NCBI GenBank assembly: GCA_001986395.2
Contig: MQVO02000009.1
Span: 434,001 to 498,000 of the forward strand
DNA: 64,000 bases
Direction of reading: 5' to 3'
From: Irpex lacteus
Lineage: Eukaryota > Basidiomycota > Agaricomycetes > Polyporales > Irpicaceae
Shown here: in pieces, positions 1,529 through 50,668 of the stretch
How the letters are laid out: the number at the start of each line of letters is the position of its first letter
Numbering within the stretch: the stretch's first letter is position 1
The notes under the pieces: model-generated
Databases searched by the model: none
The model's input: the letters and a program-made list of their open reading frames with translations, nothing else
Told to the model about the DNA's origin: nothing
Position numbers and translations under genes: made by a program

Positions 1529-1832
1529 GCTACCATCGAATGGATTATGTACTTATAGGACAGCAACTGGGCATATGTGATTGTATTATGAATATATTCT
1601 CGTTGACTTGCTGGTTGAAGCTGGCAGGAGCAGCGGCCGAATGGAGGTGGCGGGCGTCCAAAAGAGGAATGCGTCGGGACTTATTACGTCCTAGCGGAGA
1701 TCAATTCAAAATTTTGGACACGACTCATCCACTTGTCTTGTTGACTCAACTTGGACTCTCACCACCACCTCCCCCTACTTAAACCGCCTTGGTTCAGACA
1801 CCCTACTTTTCAAGAGCGACTCCCGCTCGTAC
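1529..1832. other. Intergenic: 3' flank of BSD gene and CPA1 promoter
   Basis: This 304-base spacer between two genes on the same strand must hold the terminator of the BSD gene and the CPA1 promoter. A pyrimidine-rich stretch near 1755-1800 precedes the CPA1 leader. I see no gene and no convincing TATA box. Confidence 0.5.
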
Positions 1833-1955
1833 ATGATTTTCACGCAGAACACACGCGACGAGTAAGTTGTTTAACGGTTAATGGGCCCAAGTCGCGTGCT
1901 CATCGACTACCACAGTTACCTCAGTGACCTCGTCTTCTCGCTCCTCAGTCATTAA
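1833..1955 (+). CDS. Arginine attenuator peptide (AAP) uORF of CPA1, split by an intron
   Basis: Exons 1833..1861 and 1916..1955 give a 22-codon peptide ending DDYLSDLVFSLLSH; its stop lies 26 bases before the CPA1 start codon. Fungal CPA1/arg-2 leaders carry an uORF whose peptide stalls the ribosome at its own stop codon when arginine is high, lowering CPA1 translation and destabilising the mRNA. The fungal core is (S/T)QDYLSDHLW. Here the core D-Y-L-S-D is kept, the Asp equivalent to Neurospora Asp12 is present, and 12 residues follow it before the stop, exactly as in Neurospora. The conserved Trp is replaced by Phe. Intron 1862..1915 (54 nt, GTAAGT...CAG) interrupts the Asp codon. Without splicing, the first ATG gives only 10 codons (stop at 1863..1865), and an intron ATG at 1881 opens a 24-codon frame into the same ending. 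Confidence 0.85.
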
Positions 1956-1981: not shown

Positions 1982-3463
1982 ATGCTCGCTCGTACCCTCA
2001 TTCGCACTTCCCGCCTCTCGCGAGGCTTCGCTACACACGCCAACAACACGTCGCTGCCAGCAGTGCTCCATCTTAAGACTGGCCAGTCCTTCCAAGGACG
2101 TTCCTTCGGCGCACCAAAAAGCATCTATGGAGAAACAGTATTCTCCACTTCTATCACTTCTTGTGAGTAGTAGTCATTGCTACGTGGTTATTGTCCTCGA
2201 TTCTTACGTTTCGCTCACAGATACTGAATCTATGACCGACCCATCCTACCGGGGTCAAATCCTCGTCTTCACCACACCGCTCATCGGCAACTATGGTGTG
2301 CCTTTGAACAAGACACCCGTTGACAGCCGTGATGTTGGTGTATATCTCGAGTCAGAGCGTATCCAGTGCAGCGCCGTCGTCGTTGCGGATGTCGCTGAAA
2401 AGTTCTCGCACTACCTCGCCGTCGAGTCCCTTCACTCTTGGTGCAACCGATTTGGCATCCCGGGTATCACTGGCGTCGATACTCGCGCCATCACCACCTT
2501 GCTTCGTGACCAGGGTACTACCCTCGGTCGTCTCGCTGTCGGTGCTGATGCCAGTGCCGCCGCTCCTGCTCCGTCCGAGTATTGGGATCCCACCACCGAG
2601 AACCTCGTAGCTCAGGTGTCCACCAAGGAACCCTATGTCCTCAACCCGAACGGTGACGTCAAGATAGCTGTACTCGACTTCGGCGCCAAGGCCAATATCG
2701 TCCGCTCACTCGTCCGCCGTGGTGCTGCCGTCACTGTTCTTCCTTGGAACTTTGACTTTAACAAGGTTCGGGACCAGTTCGACGGCCTCTTCCTGTCGAA
2801 CGGACCCGGCGACCCCAACCACTGCATGGAAGCTGCCTTGCATCTTCGCAAGACTCTTGCAGAGTGGGATAACCCCGTGTTCGGTATCTGTATGGGACAC
2901 CAGGTCATCGGTATGGCCGCCGGTCTGGATGCTTACCGTATGACGTTTGGGAACCGTGGACACAATCAGCCTGTGCTCGCACTTGCTTCATCTGGTTCTA
3001 TCAAGGCCGGCCGTGTGTACGTCACGAGGTATGGTTTCATTATTGCCAGTCTCCGATCTTTGGTCGCTGACGAAAAGCTTATAGCCAAAACCATCAATAT
3101 GCCTTGAAGCTCCAGGATCCTTTCCCGAAAGGCTGGGAGCCCTTCTTCATCAACTGCAATGACTCATCTGTCGAGGGTATCAAGTCGACTACTGAGTCTG
3201 GCAAGAAAGTGTGGGGCGTTCAGTTCCATCCTGAGAGTGCTGGTGGTCCGCTGGACACCATCGAGGTTAGTGTCTTCGAACTCAACTACTCTAGGCAATC
3301 TTCTAACACCATTGCACAGATGTTCACTGACTTCCTTGCGGAATGCCGTGCTCACAAGCTGCAAATCAACCACGCACAACCCGACGTGATGGGCGCTGCC
3401 AAAGTCCAGCCTGCCTTGAAGCACGAGACCGTTCGCCCTGTCGCGGTCGCTGCTGCTGCATGA
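1982..3463 (+). CDS. CPA1: Carbamoyl-phosphate synthase, arginine-specific, small (glutaminase) subunit
   Basis: Exons 1982..2162, 2221..3028, 3085..3265 and 3320..3463 encode 437 aa. It supplies ammonia from glutamine to the large subunit for carbamoyl phosphate, the first committed step of arginine synthesis. The N-terminus (MLARTLIRTSRLSRGFAT) looks like a mitochondrial presequence. The first half is the CPSase small-chain domain (SYTESMTDPSYRGQ, TGVDTRAIT). The second half is a class I glutamine amidotransferase with nucleophile Cys284 in GICMGHQ and His378/Glu380 in QFHPE, so the triad is complete. The length fits the family. The last intron (3266..3319) is exactly 54 nt with no stop, so an unspliced reading stays in frame. 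Translation is expected to be arginine-repressed through the uORF at 1833..1955. Confidence 0.96.
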
Positions 3464-3642: not shown

Positions 3643-6600
3643 CTACTTCTTCGCTGCACCTGCTCGACGCTCCTTTGGAATATGCGAAAGAACTTCCTCA
3701 TCGTCGGAATCCGAGCTATCAGAGGACGAGTCGTCATCCCCCAGAGCGTTTCCAAGAGATCTCTTCTTTGCATCCGTACTTGGGCGAGGCGGAACGGGGT
3801 GGGCGGTCAGAGGGGTGAACATTCCTTGACTCGCAATGTCCGAGAGACGAGGGAGCTTCCAAGAGGACACAGGCCGCATCGCAGACTTGACTAGACCGCT
3901 CACCTGGGATGCACTTTCTCGCTGCGTAAGCGGAGAACTGACAAGTTGCGAGTGCGGTGGTACACGGTGAGGTGCCTGGCTGCTTGGGAGGAACAGAGGT
4001 GTAGCAGATGTGGCACCTGCCGTCTTTACGAGTGGCGTCGACGTCAGCTGATCTCGCGCGTCCTCGTCGTCTGAAGATGCGGGGGGAACGGAGCCCGCGG
4101 ATTTAACTCCGTTATCCTCCCTCTCTGTATGCCCGGGACTACTGGATCGTAGCTCGTCAATCTGGGTCATGTCGTGAGCTGACGGGGTGGCTGATAGAGT
4201 CTCCCAGCCATTCGTGGTAGGAGCAGGATCCTGGCTGGCATCGGCAGTGGCAGCAGCAGTGGTTTCTGGGACGACTGTTGGCGTAGCCTTGACGGTCGTT
4301 TGTCCACTGACAGGCGCATCGCCCGCTACACCCTTGGCGCTCTTGACAGACTTCGTCGTCGTAGACTTCAAACGGGCCTTTTCAGCCTGATGGGCCGCCT
4401 TTTCCGCCTGCTTCTTCGCATTCTGTAGCGCCTTCTTCTCCGCTGCTATCCTTGCTCTTTCAGCCTTGACCTCAGCCGACAGAGGGGGTCGACCACGCCT
4501 CTTCGCGGGGGTAGTGATGGCAGATGCGGAAGACAGTGGTTCAGCGTCGGCAGCCGCAGCCGCGACCGGCTGGTTGGCATCAGTCTTAGGGCGTGCAGTC
4601 GCAGTGTTATGTTCTGCACTGGTAGACGTCGCCTTAGTATCACGAGCGTTGCCGTTACGATCCTTCATCTTCTTCGCGGTCCTGTTCTTAGGAAGCGGCG
4701 TAGGCGGTGGCGTAGATTTATCCAAAGTCACTTGCGACATGCCCACCTCAATGGGATCATCGTCTGCCCCAGGAGATTCTGGCTCCTCCGATGGCTCGAT
4801 TGGATCTTCTTCGTGCTGAGCGGATGCCATGGGGACATCTGGCGAGCTTTCCCGGTCATGCGTTGCGGACTGGACACCCGGGACTGGTGAGGACTCTTCT
4901 TCGTCTTCGGAGGAGGGGACTACCTCCTCGTCTTTGCTGAGCATATCGATGTCTTCGTCAGCACTGGCTCTCGTCAGTGAGGGTTCATCAAGAGCAACAG
5001 GGGTGCCTTTCGCAGGGGAGTCAACGGTGATAGCGTCAACCTAGCTGATGTTAGTTATGGCGAATTCTGCTGATCGTGCAGTAGGGTTACGCACCTGTGT
5101 AGACGACGGGACCTCGGCATCTTGGTCGACATCCATCGGAACACTGTTGGTCGGTGTACCTTGCTCCTCATCCGAGTCCTCTTCGTCCGAAGAAGGCGCA
5201 CGCCGCTGCAGCTGCTGCGACATACGCCGGAAAGCCCTCTCATGCTTCGCCTCCTCTTCTGACGCCATATCCTCTGCCTCTGAATCTCCACTTTCGCTAC
5301 TATCGTCACCTTTGGCGGATATGTTATTCAAGATGTTCGCTACATTCAATGACGATGGTGGACCGCGCAACAACGCCTCGAGATCTGCTTCAGTAGGGTT
5401 TTGCGGAAGAGAGAGAGTGGGAGCAGGTAGGTCGGCAGCCTTCCCATCGCCCTCTTCCGCATCGTCTTCGCCCTCATCACTGCTGGAACTCTCCGAGCTA
5501 TCATCACTCTTCCCCTGCACCACCACCTCTGAAATCTCGGATCCTGTAGGGATCGTTGGTAGGCCGTTTTGAAGTGGAACCTCTGGAGACTGCGAGCGAG
5601 AGGCGAACAAAGACCCGTTGCCCACGTCTGAGTCAGAGGGTGAAACACGCTTCTCTTCCGTCGGCTCCTTGTGCGAGTTACTCAATGACTGCCTCTTCTC
5701 CATCTTGCCCAGTATATGCTCTAATTCTCGCACGACCTGTAATTGGTTGGGATCACTTTTGAGCTCCTTGATTCTGCGTTTGAGAGGCTCTGGTCCAGCA
5801 GCCACGACAGAACACTGCCAGCGCAAGTGGAATGGCCGTTTGAGGCAAACAGGGCAAGGAACAGTGTTTTCTTGGCGTTTTGTTGCGCCGGGCTTCTTAC
5901 GTTGGGTAGCAGGGGAATACGTAGAGTCCGCGTCGTGTTCTTCAGGATGATCCTGGTCGTGAACTCCTTCTTTCGCCTTCCCATCGCTTTCGGACAATAG
6001 CGGGGCTGCTGATGGTGTAGTCGGGGATACTGCACGAGGCGGCGGTAAGGGCGAAGAAGCAGGTTGAGGCGAGGGCAATGGAGCAGGCTGAAGTGAGGAA
6101 GATGAAGTAGGCTGAGGCGAGGGTAATGAAGCAGGCTGAGGAGAAGGTAATGGAGCAGGTTGAGGAGAAGGTAATGAAGCAGGTTGAGGAGAAGGTAATG
6201 AAGCAGGTTGAGAAGGTAATGAAGCAGGTTGAGGAGAAGGTAGTGAAGCAGGTTGGAGTGAGAAAGATGAAGTAGGCTGAGGCGAAGGTAATGAAGTAGG
6301 TTGAGGGGAGGGTACTGAAGCAGGTTGAGGTGAGAGTTCAGTTCGAATCGGAGGAGACGCCTTAGGAGGGAGTGAAGATATTACTGTCTCAGCTGACGTA
6401 GAAGTTTGCGGTGGGGCAGGTTGAATACCTGAAGGAGGAGCTCGAGCATTGATCGTTGCCATAATACTCTCGACAACTGAGAGAGCCACAGAACTAGCTT
6501 CATATACCTTCGGCGGAGGTTTAGATTTTTCTAACACGGACGTTGAAAGTCGGGCTTGGTTCATTAGACATACTACTTACTGGACGGTTTCGCGGGTTTG

Positions 6601-31130: not shown

Positions 31131-31636
31131 AGGCGCTCCATTTCAACCCACGATCCAGCCTCCGAGTTCGTATCATGTACGATACTGTGCTCGGTCGAGG
31201 AGACGGGCGAGAGGAAGAGAGAGAGTCCCGCTTGCTGCTATTGCGTTATGGGTGTTTTTATCTGTCTTTCTGCATTTGTTATTTTCACAGCCATCATGAC
31301 CCACGTTTCTACCCTGTATGAATGTATGGCACAGCGAAAGCTTCTCTCCTACCTGTGTGAGCAAACCTGAGAGATGCAGTCTGTTGCGTGACTAGATAAG
31401 ATATTGTGATGTCCAGTCTTGTTGATGATATCCCGGCATGAATGCGACGGACTGGGACCCTCAGAGCCAGAGTAGTACTTAGACAAGTTCAACCCTCGGG
31501 GCTTAGAATTCATGTCTGACGTCTACGTCCATTAAAGTTCTCGATAAGATGGGTGGTTATAAATCCAGACTACTTGCGAAGGACGGTGTATGTACTGCTG
31601 GTTTAGGGCCTTGAACGTGTGAGAAGCAAAAATAAT
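31131..31636. other. 3' flank of RPS5 and spacer to tRNA-Glu
   Basis: RPS5 3' untranslated sequence, then unassigned spacer. A run of five T on the minus strand at 31627..31631 directly after the tRNA 3' end is a likely RNA polymerase III terminator. Nothing else is seen. Confidence 0.5.
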
Positions 31637-31707
31637 TCCGACACGGGGAATCGAACCCCGGGCTATCGCGTGAGAGGCGATAATGTTAGCCACTACACCA
31701 TATCGGA
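31637..31707 (-). tRNA. tRNA-Glu (anticodon CTC)
   Basis: 71 nt without an intron. The acceptor stem TCCGATA pairs with TGTCGGA (one T-G wobble). The anticodon loop CTCTCAC gives anticodon CTC (decodes GAG). The T-arm contains GGTTCGATTCC, the B box. It is identical over its full length to the plus-strand copy at 50505..50575. Confidence 0.95.
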
Positions 31708-50504: not shown

Positions 50505-50575
50505 TCCGATATGGTGTAGTGGCTAACATTATCGCCTCTCACGCGATAGCCCGGGGTTCGATTCCCCGTGTCGGA
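50505..50575 (+). tRNA. tRNA-Glu (anticodon CTC), second copy
   Basis: 71 nt, identical to the minus-strand gene at 31637..31707, with the same acceptor stem, CTC anticodon and GGTTCGATTCC B box. A TTTT run about eight bases downstream (near 50583) is the likely terminator. The flanks differ from those of the other copy, so only the gene itself is shared. Confidence 0.95.
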
Positions 50576-50668
50576 ATTATGTTTTCAAAATATTCATTAT
50601 TTTTCCACTCCCACCTGGCAACGAATCCATATCTTCCTCTTACTCACTTACCCCCCCCTTCATCCACA

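Follow-up and report, generated by a model that had tools for sequence, protein, structure and literature searches.

A probable arginine attenuator uORF, split by a predicted intron, in the CPA1 leader of Irpex lacteus

In Irpex lacteus the gene CPA1, which encodes the small subunit of the arginine-specific carbamoyl-phosphate synthase (CPS), is preceded by a short upstream open reading frame (uORF). We consider it probable that this uORF is the arginine attenuator of a basidiomycete CPA1 and that an ordinary intron, as a rule spliced out, runs through it. Homology of the uORF to the arginine attenuator is near certain, and the core of the arginine attenuator peptide (AAP) that it encodes is beyond chance. 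Elements of this kind are known, and the Irpex leader adds one more organism; two details make it noteworthy, an essential Asp codon that is split by the intron and a Phe that stands in for Trp.

The CPA1 gene and its surroundings

The window analysed here is a stretch of 64,000 nucleotides (contig C54, positions 434001-498000) from an assembly of 44.3 Mb in 317 contigs. Within it CPA1 occupies positions 1982..3463 of the forward strand and encodes a protein of 437 residues in four exons, which was identified through Pfam (CPSase_sm_chain and GATase) and protein matches. The three coding introns, at 2163-2220, 3029-3084 and 3266-3319 (+), measure 58, 56 and 54 nt. Among the best 120 of 7991 protein matches the nearest are from Irpex rosettiformis, which is placed in the Irpicaceae (Polyporales), and Cytidiella melzeri, with 92% and 91% identity respectively, and both carry the name CPS small subunit. 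The separate small subunit suggests that the enzyme is the arginine-specific one. A family search of the genome returned at least two CPA1 exons and at least one further CPS small-chain match on contig C18, which is probably the pyrimidine enzyme; among the matches listed in that search there is one CPA1. The third coding intron of CPA1 (3266-3319, 54 nt) is in frame and contains no stop, so its retention would add 18 residues near the C-terminus.

Upstream of CPA1 lies a gene with a BSD domain, whose apparent end at 1528 leaves about 304 nt to the ATG of the uORF at 1833. Between the two, at 1742..1748 (+), a candidate TGACTCA element starts 91 nt 5' of the uORF start. We take this to be a Gcn4/CPC1-type site, and it would weakly fit regulation of CPA1 by general amino-acid control; the window holds 12 copies of this motif against 12.66 expected, and one copy in the leader interval is only mildly notable.

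The spliced leader encodes an AAP-type peptide

The uORF is predicted to consist of two exons on the forward strand. Exon 1 (1833..1861) ends two bases into the essential Asp codon, and exon 2 (1916..1955) supplies the last base of that codon, followed by YLSDLVFSLLSH and the stop codon TAA at 1953-1955, which is the predicted site of arginine stalling. Joined, the exons give 69 nt that translate to MIFTQNTRDDYLSDLVFSLLSH*, a peptide of 22 residues in which 12 residues stand between Asp10 and the stop. Phe17 sits seven residues after Asp10 (Asp+7), where the characterised AAPs have Trp. The predicted intron, 1862..1915 (+), is phase 2 and divides the Asp codon itself (GA|T), so that the full core would be present only after splicing at 1861/1916. 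Searching the genome with an uninterrupted Asp codon in the pattern gave no match, as the intron divides that codon; TAYYTNAGYGAYCTNGTNTTY, a degenerate word for YLSDLVF from the spliced peptide with AGY serine codons only, occurs a single time in the 44.3 Mb, at this uORF. An Asp codon that would exist only in the spliced RNA offers a clean system for studying whether splicing efficiency tunes a nascent-peptide sensor.

Judged by sequence, the start context at 1833 is weak (T at -3) and that of CPA1 at 1982 is strong (A at -3), a combination that fits leaky scanning. Between the uORF stop and the CPA1 start there are 26 nt. On re-reading, the coordinates and leader translations of the earlier note proved right to the base. 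Its description of a spliced 22-residue AAP-type peptide, with Asp in register and 12 residues to the stop, is borne out both by the re-read sequence and by the score described below, and the Phe that it reported in place of the conserved Trp is present and is a real caveat for an arginine response. The division of the Asp codon is a detail beyond that note.

The AAP core is beyond chance

We scanned mini-ORFs on both strands of 264 kb, made up of the window and 20 other 10-kb stretches of this genome. Mini-ORFs were defined as ATG frames of 14-60 residues, which overlap and so are not independent, and for spliced mini-ORFs we allowed a single intron, 46-65 nt long, that has a GTRNG donor, a CTNAY and a YAG. 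Each was scored for seven AAP features counted from the peptide end: Asp-13, Tyr-12, Leu/Ile-11, Ser-10, Asp-9, Leu/Ile/Val-7 and Trp/Phe-6. The features were drawn from known AAPs, the tolerance for Val and Phe suits the CPA1 leader peptide and so favours it, and most of the weight of the score lies in the five DYLSD positions.

All seven features were found in one of the 455 once-spliced mini-ORFs, the CPA1 leader uORF, and the remainder reached three at most. The best of the 4386 unspliced mini-ORFs, with six features, is its own frame-mate that starts at 1881, and four more reached four features, two of which share a frame, one inside the other. The whole core is therefore seen once among 4841 overlapping mini-ORFs, and this one case lies directly before CPA1. 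A random short ORF that happens to stand ahead of CPA1 and resembles an AAP by chance is effectively refuted by these two observations together. A search of the 22-residue peptide against solved structures matched none of 177635 sequences at E values up to 10, a comparison that is insensitive with a query this short.

Comparison with characterised attenuators

The closest parallels are the AAPs encoded ahead of arg-2 in Neurospora crassa and of CPA1 in Saccharomyces cerevisiae. All three precede the same gene and place the Asp 12 residues before the stop, all share a core of Tyr, Leu/Ile, Ser and Asp, and in all of them a weak uORF start is followed by a strong main start. The peptide has 22 residues in Irpex, 24 in Neurospora and 25 in yeast. 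The Irpex element differs in the Phe at Asp+7 and in the intron that splits the Asp codon. Characterised AAPs also have His after the second Asp, where the Irpex peptide has Leu. Residue 14 of the Neurospora AAP is believed to be Leu rather than the Lys that is found in print. A review names Asp12, Tyr13, residue 14 (printed as Lys) and Trp19 as the critical Neurospora residues (PMC3130931), and against this set the Irpex Asp, Tyr and Leu match, whereas Trp is replaced by Phe. In yeast the stretch T-C-Q-[D13N]-Y-I-S is readable from a mutagenesis primer, and the same source reports that D13N abolished the arginine effect (PMC7969011). The spacing between Asp and stop may be less strict than the comparison implies, as Neurospora arrest is said to persist with the stop codon moved (cited in PMC13183943). 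Scans of viral contigs and of genome contigs for a relative's leader turned up no fungal DNA; the genome contigs yielded four loci, titled bacterial or archaeal.

A basidiomycete parallel is provided by Cryptococcus neoformans and C. deneoformans, where a uORF likewise precedes CPA1. Studies of Cryptococcus describe strong ribosome occupancy of this uORF with repression of the main ORF, and a 5-fold increase of CPA1 mRNA in a C. deneoformans upf1 mutant (PMC7049704); up-regulation of CPA1 in a nonsense-mediated decay (NMD) mutant is also reported (PMC5006051). The Cryptococcus genes with the highest translation carry a purine at -3 (PMC7049704). By analogy, the spliced form in Irpex is best predicted to work by a mechanism of the Cryptococcus type.

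We infer from these features how the leader would act in vivo. Once the mRNA is spliced, a fraction of the scanning ribosomes would use the weak ATG at 1833 and make the 22-residue peptide. At high arginine the Asp-Tyr-Leu-Ser-Asp core would stall the ribosome at the stop codon at 1953-1955, and the stalled ribosome would keep later subunits from reaching the strong start of CPA1, 26 nt further on. Stalling would probably also mark the mRNA for NMD. RNA that retains the intron, if it reaches ribosomes, would present two short uORFs without a complete core, and we expect it to be a poorly translated, arginine-blind by-product rather than a dedicated regulatory state.

Phe for Trp, Leu for His, the CTCAT branch site and an alternative acceptor at 1924 stand as caveats against the attenuator reading. 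The replacement of Trp at Asp+7 makes the claim of an arginine response correspondingly weaker, and we regard this Trp as functionally important in the characterised peptides, not as a mark of the family. It is possible, if improbable, that the uORF is a degenerate attenuator, descended from an AAP, in which repression of CPA1 by ribosome occupancy and decay persists while arginine sensing has been lost or weakened by the Trp-to-Phe and His-to-Leu changes. The Phe would fit such a loss, since Trp19 counts among the critical Neurospora residues (PMC3130931), but the Asp, Tyr, Leu, Ser and Asp of the core and the 12-residue spacing are intact and in exact register, and in a frame of 22 codons drift would be expected to erode the core as well. 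A working attenuator that carries Phe remains the reading we prefer. With the Irpex uORF the known range of the AAP takes in a polypore-related CPA1 whose leader peptide has a substitution at a reportedly critical position, a natural test of the residues that sense arginine.

The leader intron appears ordinary

The predicted intron is 54 nt long (GTAAGT...CTCAT...CACAG), and the branch-type A of its CTCAT lies 13 nt before the intron end. The corresponding sites in the CPA1 coding introns, CTTAC, CTGAC and CTAAC, are 14, 14 and 13 nt from the end, and the leader intron resembles these introns in both length and branch spacing. For wider comparison we used overlapping sets of introns inferred with a codon model. 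These sets left out introns that are stop-free and a multiple of three in length, hence also the third CPA1 intron. At a cut-off of 6, 97 of 762 candidates with a GTRNG donor passed and so did 115 of 1334 with a decoy donor; the sets are noisy, and the base rates derived from them are approximate. GTAAGT is the most frequent donor in three of the four sets of 46-65 nt, in which candidates had been limited to GTRNG beforehand. CTRAY occurs in 38% and CTNAY in 64% of a 53-intron set, and since CTCAT falls outside the stricter CTRAY form the branch site could be on the weak side. In its splice-site features the leader intron looks ordinary. An alternative in-frame acceptor CAG, with its last base at 1924 (+), would give an intron of 63 nt and remove Tyr-Leu-Ser from the core; its use could yield a defective variant of the peptide.

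Retention of the intron as a possible switch

If the intron is retained, the frame from 1833 reads MIFTQNTRDE* and ends after 10 codons at the stop 1863..1865 (+). An ATG within the intron then opens a second frame, 1881..1955 (+), of 24 codons plus stop, MGPSRVLIDYHSYLSDLVFSLLSH*, with Ser in the Asp register; like the ATG at 1833 it has T at -3. Both frames had been described in the earlier note and are confirmed. The same note had gone on to suggest that retention could act as a switch to an arginine-blind uORF. What stands of its interpretation is that the uORF is of AAP type, that a predicted intron interrupts it and that splicing would complete its Asp codon; a regulated switch found no support.

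The frequency of such intronic ATGs bears on this directly. In the overlapping inferred sets of 46-65 nt, an intronic ATG in frame with the following exon, and open into it, occurred in 1/27, 2/53, 9/105 and 7/72 introns (4-10%), and the 66-91-nt introns contained 13 in 71. Simulation of 20000 introns of 54 nt gave 16%. With such an ATG expected in roughly 4-16% of introns, the single case at 1881 carries no weight either for or against selection, and the 1881 uORF can be a by-product of the retained intron. In Yarrowia 383 of 561 5' UTR introns contain an upstream start followed by a stop in its frame (PMC13309789), and retention of 5' UTR introns often yields uORFs. The unspliced leader also folds no better than shuffled sequences (z -0.03; 88 of 200 shuffles were as good), which makes no structured sensor apparent.

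Introns in the AAP regions of other fungi may already be known. A limited literature search, covering titles and the openings of abstracts among the papers listed, found no splice-dependent AAPs, which does not imply their absence from print. Related arrangements are on record: in TPP riboswitch genes and in a N. crassa gene with the SDC motif, the choice of splice site alters the uORFs on the mRNA (PMC5640933). The SDC splice forms were seen by RT-PCR and the TPP ones are described as riboswitch-controlled (PMC5640933), whereas for the Irpex leader alternative splicing is a proposal.

Could splicing nevertheless gate the attenuator? Regulated retention would then exchange the arginine-responsive uORF for an arginine-blind pair, and splicing would determine whether CPA1 obeys arginine. 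The position of the intron is suggestive, as it divides the essential Asp codon and splicing completes it, and fungal uORF leaders with alternative splicing are known (PMC5640933; PMC7049704). In Cryptococcus, retention is commoner for UTR introns than for those in ORFs, and of 4,210 retention events over half vary with growth conditions (PMC5006051). Against this, an open intronic ATG at the frequencies above needs no selection, the splice signals of the leader look ordinary and its unspliced fold gives no hint of a sensor. In Cryptococcus retained-intron transcripts contribute only a small share of the mRNA from a gene (PMC5006051), and the Neurospora SDC structure mutants M1 and M3 left splicing unchanged (PMC5640933). 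Retention should moreover reduce CPA1 output rather than free it, the two uORFs of the retained leader mostly lowering expression. More retention often accompanies lower expression in Cryptococcus, and the authors there suggest that incompletely spliced mRNAs may stay in the nucleus or be degraded there (PMC5006051). We therefore regard a splice gate on the attenuator as quite unlikely. The same doubt applies to a conserved form of it, in which the intron in the Asp codon would serve in this fungal group, through regulated retention, to produce an arginine-blind and constitutively repressive CPA1 leader; if true, it would add another level of control on top of the attenuator. The reading that we retain is an attenuator uORF interrupted by an ordinary intron.

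Other features of the window and assembly

At the gathering cut-off, RNA families across the window amount to two tRNAs only. Both are tRNA-Glu (CTC) genes, identical to each other and oppositely oriented, at 31636-31707 (-) and 50505-50576 (+). Repeats of the LPSPQPAS type form a long run at about 6040-6340 (-), inside a minus-strand ORF at 5041-6564. Elsewhere in the assembly, P450 exon matches recur with matching profile ranges on the contig pairs C44/C134, in mirrored order, and C37/C8, which suggests that haplotype duplicates were left in the assembly.
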